From an uncultured Eubacteriales bacterium (GTDB lineage: Bacteria; Bacillota; Clostridia; Oscillospirales; Oscillospiraceae), in NCBI GenBank assembly GCA_900317905.1, contig ONIN01000007.1, positions 19,671-83,670 of the forward strand: a DNA stretch of 64,000 nt, read 5' to 3'. This document shows, one piece after another, positions 34,023 to 43,375 of the stretch (its first letter is position 1; each line of letters starts with the position of its first letter). A program made the position numbers and the translations under genes. A model generated the notes under the pieces. It was not told the DNA's origin, made no database searches, and saw only the letters and a list, made by a program, of their open reading frames with translations.

Positions 34023-36065
34023 TTATGCCACGGCGTGGCGCTCGTGGTTGCGCATGAGGATCTGGATGACCACCACAACGGCGATGACGCCGAGGCCGAT
34101 CACGTCGGTCAGCAGGCCCGGATAAATCAGGCTGAGACCGCCGCCCGCCAGCAGGATCCGCTGCCAGAGGGGCACGCGGGTGAAGATGTGACCCTCCAGG
34201 GCGGCGCTGACGCCGAAGATGCCGATGATGGCGGTGAGGGCGATCTGCGCCACCTCCCACCAGCCGGCGATGTTCTCAAACAGCAGCGACGGGCTGAAGG
34301 CAAAGACGTAGGGCACGATGAAGGCCGCGATGGCCAGCTTCGTGGCGTTGACGCCTGTTTTCATGGGGTTCGACTTTGCGATGGCGGAGCCGGCGTAGGC
34401 GGCCAATGCCACCGGCGGAGTGATGTCGGCCACGATGCCGAAGTAGAACACGAAGAAGTGGGCGCTGACCGCCGGCAGACCCATCTTAATCAGGATCGGC
34501 GCGGTGGTGGCGGCCATGATGCAGTAGTTGGCCGTGGTGGGCACGCCCATGCCCAGAACGATGCAGCAGAGCATGGTGAGGAACAGCGCCAGGAACACGC
34601 TGTTCTGGCTGATTGCCACGATGCCGGAGATCAGCTTGGAGGCAAGACCCGTGGCGGTGATGCAGCCCGCGATGCAGCCGGCCACGGCGCAGGCGACGGC
34701 CACGGTGATGGTGCCCTTGCCGCCGGCCTCCAGAGAGGCGATGATGGTCTTGACCGTCTGGCCGCAGGCATTGCCGATGACCTTCCCGATCCCTTCGGAG
34801 CGGTGGGCATGGCCGGCGTCCACGATGGTCTGGGGCAGGCCCACCAGAATGGCGATGACGATGCTGACCGCGGCGGAGTAGGCCATGGTGCGGGTATTGG
34901 AGCTGACCAGCCAGACCAGCACCACCAGCGGCGCCAGCAGATAGACCTTGATCAGCAGGGCCTTCCAGGGCTCCAGCTCAGAGCGGTCGAGGCCCTTGAG
35001 GCCCAGCTTTTTGGCTTCCAGATGGACGGAGATGAAGATGCCCGCGAAGTACAGCACCGCCGGCAGAATGGCCTTCAGCGCCACCTGGCCGTAAGGGATG
35101 CCCATGTATTCCGCCATGAGGAAGGCGGCGGCGCCCATGATGGGCGGCATGATCTGACCGCCGGTGGAGGCCGCAGCCTCGACGGCGCCGGCGAACTCCG
35201 GCTTGTAGCCGGTCTTTTTCATCATGGGGATGGTGACGGAGCCGGTGGTGACGGTGTTGCCCACGGAGGAGCCGGACACCATGCCGCACAGCGCCGAGGA
35301 GATGACGGCCACCTTCGCCGGGCCGCCGGAAGAGGAGCCCGCGATCTTGTTGGCCATGTCGATGAAGAACTTGGAAATGCCGGTGCGCTCCAGGAAGGCG
35401 CCGAAGACGATGAACACCACGATGAACTTGGCGCAGACCTGAGCCGGGGTGCCGATGACGCCGCCGGTGGAATAGAACAGGGTGTAGATCAGTCTTCTCA
35501 GCGGCAGGCCCGTGGCAAAGGTATAGATCAGCAGCGCGCCCAGGACGCACAGGATCGGCACGCCCACGCAGCGGCGGCAGAGCTCGAACATGACCAGAAG
35601 ACCGATCACGCCGATGGCGATCTGCATGTTGTTCAGCTTGGTGGCGCTGGTGAGCACTCTCGCAAGAGAGCCGTAGCTGAAGCACCAGTAGAAGAAGCAG
35701 GCCGCGCCCACGATCATGATGATCCAGTCATACCAGGGCATGTAGTTGGGCTTGACGTGATGCTTGCTGGCGGGATAATACAAAAATCCCATGATCACGA
35801 TGCCGCCCAGGAAGGCGGTGAGGCGGATCTCCAGCGCGGACTTCACGAACAGCGTGGAATAGATGCAGTACAAAGAGAACAGCACCATGACGGCGGTGAC
35901 GATGGTGTGGGGCATCCCCTGCCAGATGCGGGTGTTGGACTCTTTATCGTACTTTTTCATCACGTCCTCGAGCTCTTCCTCGGTGACGGCCACGCTGTCG
36001 GAAACCTGCTCCGCAGCCAGCTTCAGCTCGGCCTCCGGCGCGGTTTTCTTGTTTTTCTTTGCCAT
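34023..36065 (-). CDS. TRAP transporter fused permease (DctQM-type, TAXI group)
   Basis: The 680-residue membrane protein has a soluble N-terminus of about 50 residues. A four-helix DctQ-like part and a large DctM-like part follow, with GAFLERTGISKFFIDMANKIAG, SGSSVGNTVTTGSVTIPMMKKTGY, AAASTGGQIMPPIMGAAAFLMAEY and GMGVPTTANYCIMAATTAP. Fusion of both membrane subunits is the rule for TAXI systems. It imports an organic acid or amino acid with the binding protein encoded upstream. A terminator-like hairpin separates the two genes. Confidence 0.93.
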   Translation of the reverse strand: MAKKNKKTAPEAELKLAAEQVSDSVAVTEEELEDVMKKYDKESNTRIWQGMPHTIVTAVMVLFSLYCIYSTLFVKSALEIRLTAFLGGIVIMGFLYYPASKHHVKPNYMPWYDWIIMIVGAACFFYWCFSYGSLARVLTSATKLNNMQIAIGVIGLLVMFELCRRCVGVPILCVLGALLIYTFATGLPLRRLIYTLFYSTGGVIGTPAQVCAKFIVVFIVFGAFLERTGISKFFIDMANKIAGSSSGGPAKVAVISSALCGMVSGSSVGNTVTTGSVTIPMMKKTGYKPEFAGAVEAAASTGGQIMPPIMGAAAFLMAEYMGIPYGQVALKAILPAVLYFAGIFISVHLEAKKLGLKGLDRSELEPWKALLIKVYLLAPLVVLVWLVSSNTRTMAYSAAVSIVIAILVGLPQTIVDAGHAHRSEGIGKVIGNACGQTVKTIIASLEAGGKGTITVAVACAVAGCIAGCITATGLASKLISGIVAISQNSVFLALFLTMLCCIVLGMGVPTTANYCIMAATTAPILIKMGLPAVSAHFFVFYFGIVADITPPVALAAYAGSAIAKSNPMKTGVNATKLAIAAFIVPYVFAFSPSLLFENIAGWWEVAQIALTAIIGIFGVSAALEGHIFTRVPLWQRILLAGGGLSLIYPGLLTDVIGLGVIAVVVVIQILMRNHERHAVA

Positions 36066-36142
36066 GGGGCGAACATCCTTTCGTTGATTTTTACCAAAAC
36101 TTTCCGGATTTGAAAGGCTTTGGTAAACACCAATAAAATTCT

Positions 36143-36174
36143 AAAACCAAGCTGCGGCCAAAGCCGCAGCTTGG
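36143..36174 (-). terminator. Terminator/attenuator between TAXI binding protein and permease genes
   Basis: CCAAGCTGCGGC and GCCGCAGCTTGG form a perfect 12-bp stem followed by TTTT on the minus strand. It would keep most transcripts to the binding-protein gene. Confidence 0.7.
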
Positions 36175-36199
36175 AGAAAGGTTCAGTTATTCGCGGAGC

Positions 36200-37207
36200 T
36201 TACTTGGTGGGGACAGTGATGCCCTGCTCTGCGAAGTACTGGGCAGCGCCGGGATGATACGGAATATCGGTGACGCTGGAGGCAAACTCGACACTGCACT
36301 CGGCGCCCTTGGCGTGGGCGGCGGTGACCTCGTCCAGATTGTCGAAGATGCTGGACAGGAAGTTGTAGACGTCGGCGTCGGCCACGTCGTCGCGGGCCAG
36401 AACCAGAGCGGCGATGGCGACGGTGCTCACGTCCTCAGGGGTGCCGTAGACGTCGGCAGCGATGGTGTTCTTGGCGTAGTAGGGGCTGGACTCCATGAGC
36501 GCATCGATGTGCTCGTCATCCAGGCTGACCAGATAGACCTGGCTGCCGGTGGCGAGGTCGGTGATGGCGGTGGTGGGAGCGCCGGCCACGATGAAGGCAG
36601 CGTCGATCTTGCCGTCCTTCAGGCTGTCGGCGGAATCCGCGAAGCTCTGGTACACGGGGTTGATGTCAGCCTCGGTCAGACCATAGGCGCCCAGGATGTC
36701 GATGGCGTTGAAGTACACGCCGGAACCGGCAGCGCCGATGGAGACGGTCTTGCCGGCCAGATCAGCGACGGTCTTGATGTCGGGGTTCAGGGTGACGATC
36801 TGCACCTGCTCCATGTACAGGGCGGCGACGACGGAGAAATCCTCCACAGCGCCGGTCTCTTCGAACAGGTTGGTTCCGGTGTAGGCATAGGAGGCCACGT
36901 CGGACTGGCTGAAGCACAGCTGCACAGCGCCGTCGGACAGATCCTCGATGTTGGCCTGGGAGCCGTTGCCCACGATGGCGGTCACGTCGGTGTCGGTCTT
37001 GTCAGAGACGTGCTGGGCCAGGACGGTGCCGAAAGCGTAATAGGTGCCGCTCTCGCCGCCGGTGGCGAAGGTCAGGCTGCCGCCGGCAGGCGCCGCGGCT
37101 TCTTCGGCTGCGGAGCCTTCCGCAGCGGGGGCATTGTTGCTGCTGCCGCAGGCGGCCAGGGCGAAGACCATGACCAGCGCCAGAAGCAGGGCTACATACT
37201 TTTTCAT
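36200..37207 (-). CDS. TAXI family TRAP transporter solute-binding lipoprotein
   Basis: The 335-residue lipoprotein (lipobox LAAC, then an Ala-Glu linker) starts its mature fold with LTFATGGESGTYYAFGTVLAQHV. It continues with VGNGSQANIEDL, QLCFSQSDVASYAYTG and KTVSIGAAGSGVYFNA. These match TAXI binding proteins, which are often described for glutamate-like or uncharacterised substrates. The N-terminal 45 residues closely resemble the BMP lipoprotein at 41201-42427, presumably through shared signal and linker selection. It lies upstream of its fused permease. Confidence 0.92.
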   Translation of the reverse strand: MKKYVALLLALVMVFALAACGSSNNAPAAEGSAAEEAAAPAGGSLTFATGGESGTYYAFGTVLAQHVSDKTDTDVTAIVGNGSQANIEDLSDGAVQLCFSQSDVASYAYTGTNLFEETGAVEDFSVVAALYMEQVQIVTLNPDIKTVADLAGKTVSIGAAGSGVYFNAIDILGAYGLTEADINPVYQSFADSADSLKDGKIDAAFIVAGAPTTAITDLATGSQVYLVSLDDEHIDALMESSPYYAKNTIAADVYGTPEDVSTVAIAALVLARDDVADADVYNFLSSIFDNLDEVTAAHAKGAECSVEFASSVTDIPYHPGAAQYFAEQGITVPTK

Positions 37208-37419: not shown

Positions 37420-38412
37420 CTATCGTTCTTCTCGGAAGTAGGCAAGGCCCAGGCTTGCGGGGGGCTGATTCTCTCGCTTGTTGCGCATGCTGGTGATCAC
37501 CAGAACGATGATCGTGACCACATAGGGCAGCATTTTGTAAAGCTCCTTGGTGGCAAGGTTGGTGCCGGTGGGGATGAAGATGTAGAGAATATACAGTCCG
37601 CCGAAGAGGAAGGAGGACAGGATGCCCCAATTGGGCTTCCACAGCGTGAAGATGACCAGCGCGATGGCAAGCCAGCCGCGGTCACCGAAGGCGTCGTTGG
37701 ACCAGACGCCGGCGGCGTAGTCCATGACGTAGTAGAGGCCGCCGAGACCTGCGATCATGCTGCCGATGCAGGTGGCGAGGTATTTGTACTTCTGCACGTT
37801 GATGCCGGCGGCGTCGGCGGTCTGGGGATTCTCGCCCACGGCTCTGAGGTGCAGGCCCGTGCGGGTCTTGTTGAGCACATGGGCCGCGATGAAGGCGACG
37901 ATCACCGCCAGATATGCCAGGAAACCGTAGTTGAGGAAGATTTTTCCGAACCAGCCGAGCTTGGCGGCAAAGGGCAGCTTGGCCGCAAAATACTTGTGCG
38001 TGGCGCTCAGGGCGATGCTGGGCACGTCAGAGCCGGAGAGCTTAATGAGCGAGCCGCCGAAGAAGTTGCCGAAGCCCACGCCGAAGGTGGTCAGAGCAAG
38101 GCCGGTGACGTTCTGGTTGGCTCTCAGGGTAACGGTGAGGAAGCAGTAGATCAGGCCCATCAAAAGGGAGCCCACAAGGCAGCTCAGCACCGGGATGCCG
38201 ATGGCGAGGAAGGCGTTCATCTCCGCCGCCGTGGTGGACTGCTCATAGAGGAAGGAGCCGATGACGCCGCTGATGGCGCCCACGTACATGATGCCCGCGA
38301 TGCCCAGGTTCAGGTTGCCGGACTTCTCGGTGAGGGTCTCGCCGGTGCTGCCGTACAGCAGCGGGATGCCCTGCATGATGGCTCTGGGGATGAATGCGGT
38401 GAAATCAAACAT
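37420..38412 (-). CDS. BMP-type nucleoside ABC transporter permease, second subunit
   Basis: The roughly 330-residue protein of the BPD_transp_2 family has FIPRAIMQGIPLLYGSTGETLTEKSGNLNLGIAGIMYVGA at the N-terminus and GENPQTADAAGINVQKYKY in the cytoplasmic coupling loop. It resembles the YufQ/NupQ permease partner. It has about eight or nine membrane segments. The start is the ATG at 38412 after GGGAGG and overlaps the preceding permease gene by 8 nt. It is the last gene of the binding protein-ATPase-permease-permease operon. Confidence 0.92.
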   Translation of the reverse strand: MFDFTAFIPRAIMQGIPLLYGSTGETLTEKSGNLNLGIAGIMYVGAISGVIGSFLYEQSTTAAEMNAFLAIGIPVLSCLVGSLLMGLIYCFLTVTLRANQNVTGLALTTFGVGFGNFFGGSLIKLSGSDVPSIALSATHKYFAAKLPFAAKLGWFGKIFLNYGFLAYLAVIVAFIAAHVLNKTRTGLHLRAVGENPQTADAAGINVQKYKYLATCIGSMIAGLGGLYYVMDYAAGVWSNDAFGDRGWLAIALVIFTLWKPNWGILSSFLFGGLYILYIFIPTGTNLATKELYKMLPYVVTIIVLVITSMRNKRENQPPASLGLAYFREER

Positions 38413-39532
38413 GCTGCTCGCCTCCCTTCTCTGCAATTTCAGACTTCTCACGCTTGCGGAAGCTCACCCGATAGCGCAGGAAGAACTCGCAGCCGATGAT
38501 GAAGAAAATGATGATGCCGGTGAGGATGTCGCTGAAGGCCTGGTTCAGACCGAAGACCGTGGAGACCTCGCTGGCGCCGCGGCCCATGAACACCAGCAGC
38601 AGGCTGGTGAAGATCATGGCGATGGGGTTGAACTTGGCAAGCCAGGAGACCATGACCGCCGTGAAGCCCTGGCCGCCGGCCAGCGTGGTGGTGATGGTGT
38701 GGCTGGTGCCCGCCACCAGCAGGATGCCCACCAGACCGCACAGGGCGCCGGAGAGCAGCAGGGTGCGGATGATGACCCGCTCCACCTTGATGCCCACGTA
38801 GCGGGCGGTGCGCTCGCTCTCGCCCACCACGGCGATCTCGTAGCCGTGCTTGGAGTAGTTCAGGTAGAAATAGACGAAGATGGTCATGGCGGCGATGATC
38901 AGCACGTTCAGCAGATACCGGTTGCCGCCCAGCATGGGGAACCAGCCCGCCTCGGTAGAGGCGTTGATGATGCCCACGGTGCCGGAGCCCTTGGGAACCT
39001 CCCAGATGATGATGTAGTAGGCCACCAGCTGGGTCGCCACGTAGTTCATCATCAGGGTGAAGAGGGTCTCGTTGGTGTTCCACTTGGCCTTGAAGATGGC
39101 GGGGATCACGGCCCAGACAGCGCCGGCCAGAACGCCGCAGAGAACGATCACGGCGATCAGCGCGCCGTTGGGCAGCTTGTTTCCCAGCAGGATCATGCAG
39201 GCCGCGCTGGCCAGGGAGCCCGCCAGCACCTGACCCTCGGCGCCGATGTTCCAGAAGCGCATCTTGAACGCGGGGGTCACCGCCAGGGAGATGCCCAGCA
39301 GGATGGCCAGATTCTGCAGCAGGATCCAGACTCTCCGCTTGGTGCCCACGGCGCCGGAGATGATGGTGCCGAAGACGCTGATGGGGTTTTCGCCGGTGGT
39401 CAGAGTGGTCACCAGAGCACAGAGCACCAGCGACAGGACGATGGCGAGAAAACGGATGCCCCAGGCGTGGTACCAGGGCAGGTTATCCCGCTTGACGATA
39501 TGGAACAGAGGCTCTTTTGTTTTGTTATTCAT
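38405..39532 (-). CDS. BMP-type nucleoside ABC transporter permease, first subunit
   Basis: The 375-residue membrane protein resembles YufP/NupP. ITLAVTP-type LAILLGISLAVTPAFKMRFWNIGAEGQVLAG and AKWNTNETLFTLMMNYVATQLV are characteristic. The coupling segment is VVGESERTARYVGIKVERV. It pairs with the following permease to form the channel. Its ATG overlaps the ATPase stop by 8 nt, and its own stop overlaps the next start. Confidence 0.93.
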   Translation of the reverse strand: MNNKTKEPLFHIVKRDNLPWYHAWGIRFLAIVLSLVLCALVTTLTTGENPISVFGTIISGAVGTKRRVWILLQNLAILLGISLAVTPAFKMRFWNIGAEGQVLAGSLASAACMILLGNKLPNGALIAVIVLCGVLAGAVWAVIPAIFKAKWNTNETLFTLMMNYVATQLVAYYIIIWEVPKGSGTVGIINASTEAGWFPMLGGNRYLLNVLIIAAMTIFVYFYLNYSKHGYEIAVVGESERTARYVGIKVERVIIRTLLLSGALCGLVGILLVAGTSHTITTTLAGGQGFTAVMVSWLAKFNPIAMIFTSLLLVFMGRGASEVSTVFGLNQAFSDILTGIIIFFIIGCEFFLRYRVSFRKREKSEIAEKGGEQHV

Positions 39533-41057
39533 CGGCTTTGTTCCCTCCCAGTCGGGTCATCATCATGCCCACGTCCCGCTTGGTGGCGCCGCGGCCGGGC
39601 ACGATGCCGCTGACCTTGCCGCCACAGAGGACCAGGATCCGGTCGGACAGCTCCAGCAGCACGTCCAGATCCTCGCCCACGTAGATGACGGCGACGCCCT
39701 GGGCCTTCTGCCGGTTGATGAGGTCGTAGATGGTATAAGAGGAGTTGATGTCCAGGCCGCGGACGGCGTAGGCCGTCAGCAGCACGGTGGGGGCGGAGGA
39801 GATCTCACGGCCCACCAGCACCTTCTGGACGTTGCCGCCGGAGAGACGGCGCACCGGGGTGCTGACGCCGGGGGTGTTGACCTCCAGCTCCTGGACCACG
39901 GTCTCCGCCAGCTTCTTCGGGGTGCGGCGGTCGGTAAAGACGCCCTTCCCTCTTCTAAAGGAGCGGAGCATCATGTTGTCGGACAGATCCATGTTGCCCA
40001 CAAGGCCCATGCCGAGACGGTCTTCGGGCACGAAGCTCAGCGCCACGCCCATCTCCGCGATCTCGAGAGGATCCTTGCCGAGGAGCTCTTCCTTCTTGCC
40101 CTCGTCGGTGATGTAGCAGATGCTGCCCTTCTCCGTGGGCTGCAGACCGGCGATGGCCTCCAGCAGCTCCTTCTGGCCGCAGCCGGAGATGCCGGCGATG
40201 CCGAGGATCTCACCGGAGTTGGCGGTAAAGCTCACGTCGTCCAGCTTCACGATGCCGTCCATGCTGCGCACGGTGAGGTTCTTCACCTCGATGCGGGGCT
40301 TGGGATTCACAGGATCGGGACGGTCGATGTTCAGGGTCACCGGGTGGCCCACCATCATGTTGGTCATTTCCTGGGCGTTGGTGTCCTTGGTGAGCATGTC
40401 GCCTACGAACTGGCCGTGGCGCAGGATGGCCACGCGGTCAGACAGATCCTCCACCTCGTGCATCTTGTGGGTGATGATGACGATGGCCTTGCCGTCGTCC
40501 CGCATGTTCCGCAAAACAGCAAAGAGCTTGTCCGTCTCCTGGGGGGTCAGGACCGCAGTGGGCTCGTCCAGGATCAGGATGTCGGCGCCGCGATAGAGTA
40601 CCTTGACGATCTCCACGGTCTGCTTCTGGGAGACCGACATATCGTAGATCTTCTGCTCGGGATCCACCTCGAAGCCGTACTTGTCACAGATCTCCCGCAC
40701 CTTTTTGGACACGGATCTCAGATCCAGCTTCTCCTCCAGACCCAGGGTGATGTTTTCCGCGGCGGTGAGCACGTCGACCAGCTTGAAGTGCTGGTGGATC
40801 ATGCCGATGCCGTAGCCGAAGGCGTCCTTGGGGCTGCGGATGGAGACGGGCTTCCCGTTGATGGAGATCTGTCCCTCATCCGGGTAGTAGATGCCCGAGA
40901 GCATGTTCATCATGGTGGTCTTGCCGCTGCCGTTTTCCCCCAGCAGGGCAAGGATCTCGCCGTGGTAAATGTCCAGCCAGCACTTGTCGTTGGCCACCAC
41001 GGAGCCGAATCGCTTCGTGATGTTGCGCATCTGGACGGCGGCTTGCTTTTCCTTCAA
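39525..41057 (-). CDS. BMP-type nucleoside ABC transporter ATP-binding protein (two NBDs)
   Basis: The protein has two nucleotide-binding domains, like YufO/NupO. NBD1 has Walker A GENGSGKTTMMN and Walker B ILILDEPTAVLT. NBD2 has the degenerate Walker A GISGCGQKELL normal for this family and signature LSGGNVQKVLVGRE. The aligned Walker B reads VLLTAYAVRGLD. Length is about 510 residues. The best start is the TTG at 41057, 7 nt after AAAGGAGGA. The in-frame ATG at 41150 lies in the upstream gap without a ribosome site. Confidence 0.92.
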   Translation of the reverse strand: MKEKQAAVQMRNITKRFGSVVANDKCWLDIYHGEILALLGENGSGKTTMMNMLSGIYYPDEGQISINGKPVSIRSPKDAFGYGIGMIHQHFKLVDVLTAAENITLGLEEKLDLRSVSKKVREICDKYGFEVDPEQKIYDMSVSQKQTVEIVKVLYRGADILILDEPTAVLTPQETDKLFAVLRNMRDDGKAIVIITHKMHEVEDLSDRVAILRHGQFVGDMLTKDTNAQEMTNMMVGHPVTLNIDRPDPVNPKPRIEVKNLTVRSMDGIVKLDDVSFTANSGEILGIAGISGCGQKELLEAIAGLQPTEKGSICYITDEGKKEELLGKDPLEIAEMGVALSFVPEDRLGMGLVGNMDLSDNMMLRSFRRGKGVFTDRRTPKKLAETVVQELEVNTPGVSTPVRRLSGGNVQKVLVGREISSAPTVLLTAYAVRGLDINSSYTIYDLINRQKAQGVAVIYVGEDLDVLLELSDRILVLCGGKVSGIVPGRGATKRDVGMMMTRLGGNKADE

Positions 41058-41137
41058 GCGTCTCTCCTCCTTTAGGTCTCTTTCACTGCAAGGGACACTG
41101 GGCTCGATATGAGCACATTCTCCTTTGAAGTGGAAAT

Positions 41138-41168
41138 TGGGAAGTCCCATGTATGGTGGGACTTCCCA
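41138..41168. promoter_or_regulatory. Perfect hairpin between binding-protein and ATPase genes
   Basis: TGGGAAGTCCCA and TGGGACTTCCCA form a 12-bp stem with a 7-nt loop. The strong T-run lies on the plus strand; on the operon strand the tail is weak. It probably protects the binding-protein mRNA and sets subunit ratio. Confidence 0.5.
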
Positions 41169-41200: not shown

Positions 41201-42427
41201 TTAGAAGGAGGTATCCAGCAGGGTGATACCGTCGATCTGAACGTCGAAGTAAGGAGCGGAGCGGAACTCGGACTCGTGGAAGTAGCCGTCGGCCACGACC
41301 TCGGTGTCGCCCTCAAAAGCCTCGTCGGTGTCGACGTCAGCCATGTAGGAATCCAGAGTCTTGCCGTCCACGGTGAAGGTGCTCACATCGAAGACGTGCA
41401 GCTCGCCGTTCTCGAGCTTGGCACCGACGTCCGCTATGGCACCGGCAGTGCCGGCAGCGGCAGCGCCCTCATTGACCTCGGTGAGGACAACGGAGCCGGT
41501 CTCCAGAGTGCCGGTCCAGTCAGCGTCGATGGCGATGCCGTTCTTAACGCACTCGATCATGTAGACCATGTAGGGAGTCCAGTCGATGCGGGAAGACACG
41601 ATGAAGGTGTTGGGGCAGGCGTCGACGGTGGAGCCGTTGTAGCTCACGTCGGGCACGCCGGCGGTCTCGCAGGCAGTGGGAGCGCCCATGGAGTCAGCGT
41701 GCTGGCTGATGAGCTTGCAGCCGCCCTCGATGAGCTTGGTGGCAGCTTCCTTCTCAGCGGCCTCGTCGTACCAGCTGCCGGTGAAGGTCACGTCCATGGT
41801 GGCAGTGGGGCAGACGCTGCGGGCGCCGAGGAAGAAGGAGGTGTAGCCGGAAATAACCTCAGCATAGGTGAAAGCGCCGACATAGCCGATCTTGGCCTCG
41901 TCCGCGGTGAACTCACCGGCTTCGATCATCTCGTTGAGCTTCATGCCGGCAGCGACGCCAGCCAGGAAGCGGCCCTCATAGATGGAGGCGAAAGCGTTGT
42001 GGTAGTTGTCCAGACCCTCAGTGTGGGCCTTGGTGCCGGTGGCGTGGCAGAACTGGACCTCGGGGAACTCCTTGGCAGCCTGGATCATGTAGTCCTCGTG
42101 GCCAAAGCTGTCGGCGAAGACGATGGAGCAGCCGGCGTCGACCAGCTCAGCGGCGGTCTCGTAGCACTCCTGGCCCTCGGGAACGTTGGTCTTGATGATG
42201 GCTTCGACGCCCTCAGCCTCGCAGGCGTCCTTGGCAGCGTTCATGAAGTTGAGGTCGTAGGTGGAGTTTTCGTCGTGCAGGAAGATGAAGCCGACTTTCA
42301 TATCGGCGGGGGCAGCTGCCTCTTCAGCAGCGGAGCCTTCGGCGGCGGGGGCGGAATTGCTGGAGCCGCAGGCGGCCAGAGCAAAGACCATCACGAGCGC
42401 CAGAAGCAGGGCGGTGAGTTTCTTCAT
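41201..42427 (-). CDS. BMP family nucleoside-binding lipoprotein
   Basis: The roughly 408-residue lipoprotein (lipobox LAAC) of the Bmp/PnrA/TmpC family binds nucleosides for ABC import. Signatures are MKVGFIFLHDENSTYDLNFMN, SIVFADSFGHEDYMIQAAKEFPEVQFCHATGT, NAFASIYEGRFLAGVAAGMK, KIGYVGAFTYAEV and LISQHADSMGAPTACE. The start is the ATG at 42427 after GAGGAG. It is preceded by a purine-riboswitch-type leader and lies just downstream of xpt. Together these point to a purine nucleoside cargo, guanosine or deoxyguanosine being the leading guesses. Confidence 0.93.
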   Translation of the reverse strand: MKKLTALLLALVMVFALAACGSSNSAPAAEGSAAEEAAAPADMKVGFIFLHDENSTYDLNFMNAAKDACEAEGVEAIIKTNVPEGQECYETAAELVDAGCSIVFADSFGHEDYMIQAAKEFPEVQFCHATGTKAHTEGLDNYHNAFASIYEGRFLAGVAAGMKLNEMIEAGEFTADEAKIGYVGAFTYAEVISGYTSFFLGARSVCPTATMDVTFTGSWYDEAAEKEAATKLIEGGCKLISQHADSMGAPTACETAGVPDVSYNGSTVDACPNTFIVSSRIDWTPYMVYMIECVKNGIAIDADWTGTLETGSVVLTEVNEGAAAAGTAGAIADVGAKLENGELHVFDVSTFTVDGKTLDSYMADVDTDEAFEGDTEVVADGYFHESEFRSAPYFDVQIDGITLLDTSF

Positions 42428-42482: not shown

Positions 42483-42613
42483 AAAAAGAAAAAAGACGCA
42501 ACATGGCAATTGCGTCTCGGTACCAATCTTCTCCTCAGAGGGCGGATTGATAGCCCGGTCATTTACGGCGACCGGCCAGAGACTGCAAAACCATATTTTT
42601 TGCGATGTATCAA
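42483..42613 (-). promoter_or_regulatory. Guanine-class purine riboswitch, variant core, with terminator
   Basis: On the minus strand, 42613-42547 folds as a purine aptamer. P1 is TTGATA/TATCAA, P2 GCAAAA/TTTTGC with loop AATATGG, and P3 CCGGTC/GACCGG with loop CCGTAAA. Loop GG and CC can kiss as in xpt of Bacillus. C74 (in GCTAT) predicts a guanine face. In the core, J1/2 C22 and J2/3 G52 replace the usual U22-A52 pair, and U48 is C. A terminator, AGACGCAA/TTGCGTCT plus a T-run (42517-42483), follows. Ligand binding should cause termination before the BMP importer genes. Confidence 0.85.
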
Positions 42614-42692
42614 ACGTAGATCCGCTGAAAGGTGTTGGATTGTCTGCCATTCCCGGCGCCCGGCGATTGGGACACCTTGAGAATACTGTAAT

Positions 42693-42799: not shown

Positions 42800-43375
42800 T
42801 TATTTTACAAATTCCACGCCGGTTTCCGGATCCATGGCCGCCACCCGGGCCAGAGATTCCACCCGGACGCCGGTTTTGCGGATCTGCTCGCCCCCCGGCT
42901 GGAAGGCTTTTTCAATGGCGATGGCGGCTCCGGCCACCTCGGCCCCCGCCTGCCGCACCAGGTCGATCATGCCCTCCAGGGCTGCGCCGTTGGCGAGAAA
43001 GTCGTCCACGATCAGCACCTTGTCCCCGGGCTGCAGGAACTCTCTGCCCACGATGACGGTGTTGGTGACGCCGTGGGTGAAGCTCTCCACAATGGTCTGC
43101 CACACGCCGCCGGTGACGTTGCTGGTCTTGCTCTTCTTGGCAAAGACCACCGGGCAGCCGAACACCAGACCCACAATGGCAGCGATGCCGATGCCGCTGG
43201 CCTCGATGGTGAGGATCTTGTTCACCTCGACGCCCTCATACAGGCGCTTCCACTCCTCCGCCATGGCGTAAAACAGCTTGGGATCCATCTGCTGGTTCAA
43301 GAATTTTCCAACCTTCAGAACGCCGCCGGGCAGAACCTCGCCCTCGGCACGGATCCGATCCTCCAGAAGCTTCAT
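42800..43375 (-). CDS. xpt: Xanthine phosphoribosyltransferase
   Basis: The 191-residue PRTase closely follows Bacillus Xpt. It has MKLLEDRIRAEGEVLPGGVLKVGKFLNQQMDP, ILTIEASGIGIAA, VVFAKKSKTSN and the PRPP loop VLIVDDFLANGAALEGM. It converts xanthine and PRPP to XMP for purine salvage. Bacillus xpt has its own guanine riboswitch, but here the leader is too short for one. The riboswitch instead serves the transporter genes downstream. GAGGGGG precedes the ATG. Confidence 0.96.
   Translation of the reverse strand: MKLLEDRIRAEGEVLPGGVLKVGKFLNQQMDPKLFYAMAEEWKRLYEGVEVNKILTIEASGIGIAAIVGLVFGCPVVFAKKSKTSNVTGGVWQTIVESFTHGVTNTVIVGREFLQPGDKVLIVDDFLANGAALEGMIDLVRQAGAEVAGAAIAIEKAFQPGGEQIRKTGVRVESLARVAAMDPETGVEFVK

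Follow-up and report, generated by a model that had tools for sequence, protein, structure and literature searches.

In the guanine aptamer, U51, U47 and C74 read the ligand base (PMC6649850, PMC3764141, in their available text), and base 22 contacts the ligand through its 2′-OH and by stacking (PMC6649850, same limit). The available text of PMC3764141 calls the 22–52 pair and C53 universally conserved and the A23–G46–C53 triple fully conserved. According to the accessible part of PMC8872408, the nucleoside preference of the 2′-dG-I riboswitch depends on C58, the equivalent of position 51; the single change U51C is enough to switch a guanine aptamer to dG, and C51 makes the nucleoside pocket in both 2′-dG-I and 2′-dG-II. 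Three further variants, xanthine-II, guanine-II and 2′-dG-III, are described in the available portion of PMC9295807.

Here we describe a riboswitch in which the ligand-pairing letters are kept and several core letters around them are replaced. It lies in the window, the whole stretch of 64,000 nucleotides that was analysed, and we read it, with a probability of about 0.6, as a transcriptional OFF switch for guanine, a purine-family riboswitch whose three-way-junction core is rewired. In a cmscan of the whole window, the RF00167 Purine model matched positions 42531–42632 of the minus strand with 50.5 bits, above the gathering cutoff of 37 (E 1.4e-5), which was also the sole RF00167 match in the assembly of this genome (2.2 Mb, 79.6% complete). 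The riboswitch thus truly belongs to the purine family, and its parts are as follows; family aptamers are those of the survey described below.

42545–42615, minus strand: purine riboswitch aptamer, a three-way junction of P1, P2–L2 and P3–L3 (RF00167, 50.5 bits; P1–P3 covary in a 32-aptamer alignment)
42607, minus strand: C22, canonically U22 (alignments; C in 5/135 family aptamers)
42591–42597, minus strand: L2 kissing loop AAUAUGG (RF00167 match, parsed core)
42581, minus strand: C48, ordinary variation (C in 67/135), predicted partner of the terminator GAGAC
42578, minus strand: U51, ligand contact kept (U in 135/135 family aptamers)
42576–42577, minus strand: G52 (42577, canonically A52) and G53 (42576, canonically C53) (alignments)
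42562–42568, minus strand: L3 kissing loop CCGUAAA (RF00167 match, parsed core)
42553–42554, minus strand: G73 (42554, consensus A73) and C74 (42553, the guanine-pairing C, kept) (parsed core, alignments)

The parsed core consists of P1 strands GUUUGAUA/UAUCAAUC, J1/2 CAU, P2 CGCAAAA/UUUUGCA, the 8-nt J2/3 GUCUCUGG, P3 CCGGUCG/UGACCGG and the 2-nt J3/1 GC, with core letters C22 A23 U24, G46 U47 C48 U49 C50 U51 G52 G53 and G73 C74. These numbers follow the Bacillus xpt aptamer, the P3 of the window being one pair longer than that of xpt. The three stems and two 7-nt kissing loops of RF00167 are all present, so that the covariance model and the parsed core bear out the preliminary description, made from the letters, of a purine-type aptamer with all stems, both loops, U47, U49, U51 and C74; that description missed the changes C53G and A73G. 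Of the guanine-I core, U51 and C74 are retained, U22–A52 is replaced by C22–G52, a covarying Watson–Crick replacement, and the letters of the A23–G46–C53 triple are incomplete. Because G53 in place of C53 takes this triple away, the roof of the pocket must differ. A search for the C22–G52 core pattern found a single instance in the window and none in 100 shuffles.

The family scan covered 400 genomes, that of the window included, and gave about 135 matches in 119 genomes, not all of which reached the curated cutoff. A model made from 26 of the matches and the window was used to realign them and found 135 aptamers at 131 loci (denoted by L; genomes by G). With the window counted, the 22–52 pair reads U22–A52 in 130 family aptamers and C22–G52 in five, and is mixed in none, so the replacement named in the preliminary description is real and, at 5/135, rare among the family aptamers. 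G53 occurs in three of the 135, always with C22–G52; these are the window aptamer and the orthologues L036 and L037 of the same genus. J1/2 is UAU or CAU in 30/135, so U24 is not unusual; nor is G73, as J3/1 reads GC in 38/135, although its register is uncertain in some. C74 is found in 132 of the 135, and the remaining three carry U74 and are of the adenine type (L019, L026 and L050).

When 84,980 species genomes were scanned for the C22–G52 pattern, 12 stretches came back, which were judged by eye from their stems, helped by computed folds. At least eight real C22–G52 aptamers result (L132, L135, L136, L137, which is L036, L138, which is L037, L139, which is L044, L142, which is L106, and L143), a lower bound because the pattern is strict, demanding A–U atop P1, a 7-bp P3 and CCGNAAA, and may omit the genome of the window. 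L133, L140 and L141 were dropped because their stems are absent, and L134 because it reads U22·G52. The matching U22–A52 pattern is present in 79 of 398 phylum genomes. Two of 394 order genomes hold the C22–G52 pattern, that of the window and G897, a member of another family whose aptamer letters are identical to those of L135. The pattern was absent from the viral contigs scanned, and no leader similar to that of the window was found among the plasmids searched.

Several single aptamers depart from these types. A phylum genome carries a U22–A52 aptamer with G53 and G73 (G460:C1:1423205-1423262, minus strand), so C22–G52 is no strict requirement for G53. The C22–G52 aptamer L106:342-411 also has C at ligand-contact position 47. 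The rejected L134:2987-3044, from Bacillus sp. V3B, has the A52G change alone, and the frame behind it is presumably guaA, followed by what we take to be a guanine/hypoxanthine-type permease. Tandem aptamer pairs stand before amidohydrolase-like frames at L053:356-579, L072:386-609 and L090:1558-1787 (minus strand); two of these three frames, on scanning, gave a guanine deaminase match just below the curated cutoff. At L057:1589-1744 (minus strand), two purine aptamers lie about 22 nt apart, before a frame that resembles a purine-base permease. Two genus-mates have a second aptamer with an enlarged L2 and C74 (L033:297-371 and L035:1616-1690, minus strand); the frame at L033 resembles adenine deaminase (TIGR01178 at 369 bits, short of the 472.5 cutoff), which is unexpected with a guanine-type core.

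The riboswitch stands between a purine salvage gene and an importer.

42800–43375, minus strand: xpt, xanthine phosphoribosyltransferase, directly upstream of the riboswitch (NF006671, 236 bits, cutoff 177)
41201–42427, minus strand: bmp, PnrA-like (PF02608) substrate-binding lipoprotein with a predicted nucleobase-type pocket
39525–41150, minus strand: ABC transporter ATPase with two ATP-binding stretches
38405–39532, minus strand: ABC permease (BPD_transp_2)
37420–38451, minus strand: ABC permease (BPD_transp_2)
34023–37207 of the window, minus strand: TAXI-type TRAP binding protein and fused TRAP permease, beyond the ABC importer

The downstream PF02608 bmp, ATPase and two permeases make this a BMP-type ABC importer, as the preliminary description held. 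From the importer it had gone on to suggest that the altered core senses guanosine or 2′-deoxyguanosine and governs nucleoside import, and the BMP family does include nucleoside binders (PMC7093131). The genes, however, speak against that step. A BMP frame is found at 49 of the 131 family loci, behind U22–A52 aptamers in 44 and behind C22–G52 aptamers in five; L132, L135 and L136 add three, giving 52 in all. Canonical U22–A52 aptamers therefore precede the same importer in 44 of the 52 BMP loci, same-genus orthologues among them, and xpt and/or the importer flank many canonical aptamers in the same xpt–riboswitch–bmp–ABC arrangement, so that the importer gene is no marker of the variant. At the remaining family loci the genes are different.

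Among solved structures, the BMP protein of the window has its nearest relatives in 3s99 (E 5.6e-34) and AtzT (6pi5, 2e-21) and is not closely related in sequence to the nucleoside-binding PnrA (2fqw, 0.013). AtzT was purified with guanine (KD about 110 nM), and 3s99 carries a modelled adenine (PMC6834077, in its available text). The AtzT site maps to Ser107, Phe108, Glu190, Trp219, His243 and Asp245: the Ser, Phe, Glu and Trp of the guanine site are kept, and His243 and Asp245 stand at the two Asn sites of AtzT, as in 3s99. Tyr57, the least sure pocket residue, was equated with AtzT Tyr45 by eye, phmmer aligning Ser55, two residues off. AtzT, an atrazine-plasmid protein and in this unlike the BMP protein of the window, has Asn169 where the latter has Gly194. 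Across the 52 BMP proteins Glu190 and His243 are invariant, Tyr57 and Ser107 are missing only as gaps in L113 (which lacks three pocket sites), Phe108 is Tyr in eight canonical-linked rows, and Trp219 and Asp245 depart only in L132, where the frame is cut by the contig end. The seven pocket sites are thus nearly the same in the eight variant-linked and 44 canonical-linked proteins. Judged by these alignments, the importer of the window is better described as of the purine-base type, an assignment of ligand made from sequence. Since the nearest solved BMP relatives bind bases, the gene label 'nucleoside importer' is an unsafe guide to the ligand, a caution that applies wherever close BMP relatives do so.

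Covariation was assessed on 32 chosen aptamers, 31 of them distinct: 24 were taken from the 130 canonical aptamers and eight from the nine with C22–G52. In the 31 distinct rows, the 22–52 pair is U–A in 23, C–G in eight and broken in none. In a tree of the 52 BMP proteins, the eight C22–G52 rows fall into two groups with well-supported branches between them, and a single C22–G52 clade is rejected (p-AU 0.00365) by a test in which L132 is a long, truncated row. When the four core letters and P1 are left out, the window aptamer is 1, 2 and 2 letters away from L036, L037 and the canonical L025, respectively, and 8 letters away from both L136 and L132, which belong to the other group; including P1 brings these distances to 1, 3 and 8, and to 10 and 11. 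Transfer of the leader alone was set aside because the closest counterparts of the window aptamer, outside the core and P1, come from the same genus, although counting P1 narrows the gap. From this nearness and the two groups of the BMP tree, C22–G52 most likely arose in place, twice; some smaller likelihood stays with an old C22–G52 state that was lost twice, or with a short exchange of leaders, instead of two gains.

G53 and G73 accompany C22–G52 in both groups, in the window trio and in L136. L143, which has G53 with A73, is an apparent intermediate, and the core was seemingly replaced stepwise, C22–G52 coming first, then G53, then G73. Having no bmp, L143 is not in the BMP tree; its stretch 569-1515 holds the C22–G52/G53/A73 aptamer, then a permease C-terminal remnant, then xpt, and the lack of a bmp frame there is due either to a true rearrangement or to faulty assembly. 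A comparison among the window, L137 and L138 gives identities of 94–99% in the aptamer, 64–74% in the 170 nt upstream, 79–87% in the stretch to the bmp start and 89–96% in the initial 300 nt of bmp. Conservation of the aptamer thus equals or slightly exceeds that of bmp, which speaks against decay, and the covariance score and the three-species conservation likewise disfavour chance or decay as the source of the variant. As far as its letters tell, a guanine-type riboswitch whose core has changed repeatedly and in a coordinated way is an unusual variant, and the natural recurrence of the change suggests that the roof of the pocket can be rebuilt with the ligand-pairing letters untouched.

That four core letters change together in two lineages could also point to a rewired core that shifts base specificity (to hypoxanthine, xanthine, 8-oxoguanine or another base) or sharpens discrimination like guanine-II, and enzymes of the family of the adjoining xpt use xanthine. 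Against this, U51, U47 and C74 are unchanged, and the importer is the same, with nearly the same pocket, as in canonical orthologues; we consider such a shift unlikely. With this variant one can test cleanly whether a purine riboswitch whose core changes gains a new ligand or merely an equivalent solution.

Two elements between the aptamer and bmp make up the predicted expression platform.

42521–42528, minus strand: anti-P1 GAUUGGUA, alternative partner of the P1 3′ strand (8-pair duplex, 1/300 shuffles equal; part of the leader MFE structure)
42493–42518, minus strand: intrinsic terminator of 10 pairs, then TTTTCTTTTT, with the T-run at 42492–42483; arms and loop complementary to P2–L2–J2/3

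The 10-pair hairpin (42518–42493, minus strand) and T-run substantiate the terminator first noticed behind the aptamer. The duplex of P2–L2–J2/3 with the terminator is computed at −24.8 kcal/mol, a value equalled by 0 of 300 shuffles. In the MFE structure of the leader (−43.1 kcal/mol; fold z −3.1), the P1 3′ strand is paired with GAUUGGUA and P2–L2–J2/3 with the terminator; a fold in which P1 is enforced contains the terminator and has −37.0 versus −43.1 kcal/mol for the antiterminated one. The shuffles that pair equally well with P2–L2–J2/3 and with the P1 3′ strand number 4 and 0 of 300, respectively, in L036, and 16 and 25 in L037; all pairing shuffles are mononucleotide shuffles, which preserve base composition only. 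The 3′ region of one other locus pairs with the P2–J2/3 of the window at −26.0, which beats its own −24.8. In three members of the other C22–G52 group, L136, L044 and L106, many shuffles do as well as the P2 pairing, whereas the P1-strand pairing is better than they are; these three seem, in the folding model, to use the usual P1-based antiterminator.

The preliminary description had counted C48 among the core changes. The letter is as it stated, but with C in 67/135 family aptamers it is not an unusual one. GAGAC, the complement of J2/3 GUCUC, follows within 130 nt downstream in 20/67 C48 and 6/65 U48 aptamers (Fisher p 0.004, aptamers being counted without regard to descent), and GAAAC is not linked with U48 (10/65 U48 versus 9/67 C48 aptamers). 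On the strength of the GAGAC link, C48 looks like a letter of the expression platform; as a specificity change it was discarded, being common in canonical relatives and linked to downstream GAGAC.

We propose the following course for a guanine OFF switch. Bound guanine would pair with C74, and C22–G52 would stack on it as U22–A52 does canonically; since base 22 contacts the ligand through its 2′-OH and stacking, C22–G52 can keep those contacts. P1 would then hold, P2–J2/3 would stay folded, the terminator would form and the importer would be off. When guanine is scarce, the P1 3′ strand would pair with GAUUGGUA, the P2–L2–J2/3 strand would capture the terminator, allowing expression of the importer, and G52 would pair with C74 across a G53·G73 mismatch. 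In this proposal G52 would swap partners, pairing with C74 in the free RNA and with C22 when guanine takes C74.

The swap is suggested by pair probabilities in computed folds. With stems enforced, G52–C74 has a probability of 0.94 in all four C22/G52/G53/G73 RNAs, the window included, of 0.20 in L143 (A73) and of 0.15–0.16 in three C22–G52/C53/A73 RNAs; with no constraints the values are 0.71–0.79 (78% in the window), 0.03 and 0.05–0.16, respectively. The value of 0 for the 24 canonical RNAs is trivial, as the folding model has no A52–C74 pair. The folds use nearest-neighbour energies and ignore tertiary contacts, some enforced pairs were dropped, and L106 was not among the folded RNAs. In these models, free-state G52 probably pairs with C74.

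A C74 paired with G52 in 94% of the ensemble, stems enforced, might abolish ligand binding, which counts against a guanine switch. Taken further, the value of 0.94 in the four RNAs could mean that G52 plugs C74 so strongly that the response is weak or needs high guanine, with a raised threshold or near-constitutive behaviour; given that loops, core and terminator are conserved among three species, and that the folds leave out tertiary contacts, this too seems rather improbable. Somewhat better placed, although still less likely than not, is a distinct variant, evolved at least twice, in which G52 would stand in for the ligand at C74 and swap to C22 on binding, a built-in competitor that would set a new threshold or ligand specificity for the purine importer.

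Comparison with the described classes favours the guanine OFF switch over nucleoside sensing. With 2′-dG-I (Mesoplasma florum, RF01510) the window shares the C–G at 22–52, which matches C31–G59 there (PMC8872408, available text), and it differs in having U51 rather than C58, a normal 7-nt L3 and other genes; the RF01510 model gave no match in the genome of the window at E up to 10. With 2′-dG-II (RF03165) it shares C at the ligand-pairing position, and differs in U51 instead of C51, A–U instead of G–C atop P1 and a 2-nt J3/1 free of an insertion; a run of this model found nothing at the locus, its one hit being a chance match of 14.1 bits on another contig. Position 51 is C in both classes and U here, and the 7-nt L3 and 2-nt J3/1 of the window are unlike those of either class. 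With C74 kept as well, canonical aptamers before the same importer and BMP relatives that bind bases, sensing of guanosine or 2′-deoxyguanosine, as first suggested, is very unlikely.

The 2′-dG-III, guanine-II and xanthine-II riboswitches, as far as the available text of PMC9295807 describes them, are likewise natural guanine-riboswitch variants of Firmicutes with changed joining regions, and 2′-dG-III, too, deviates in all three of these. Going by those text descriptions, the window is set apart from guanine-II and xanthine-II by the lack of J2/3 or J3/1 insertions, from xanthine-II also by the lack of U51G, and from all three by an importer in place of hydrolase, PRT or degradation genes and by a predicted OFF response. 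In particular, 2′-dG-III is predicted to be an ON switch before purine nucleoside hydrolase genes, whereas the window has a BMP ABC importer behind a predicted OFF switch, a further point against nucleoside sensing. C22, A52, transporter, importer and permease go unmentioned in the available main text of PMC9295807, whose sequence collections may contain such variants, and the C22–G52/G53/G73 combination was not found in print in the open-licence literature searched, where queries on the 22–52 pair likewise gave nothing of use. The closest likeness is to guanine-I (RF00167, the Bacillus subtilis xpt type), which the window resembles in its stems, 7-nt kissing loops, U47, U49, C50, U51 and C74, in its terminator-based OFF architecture and in its purine salvage and uptake genes. 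It differs from guanine-I in C22–G52, G53 and G73 in place of U22–A52, C53 and A73, with the A23–G46–C53 triple lost, and in a predicted antiterminator that uses P2–L2–J2/3.
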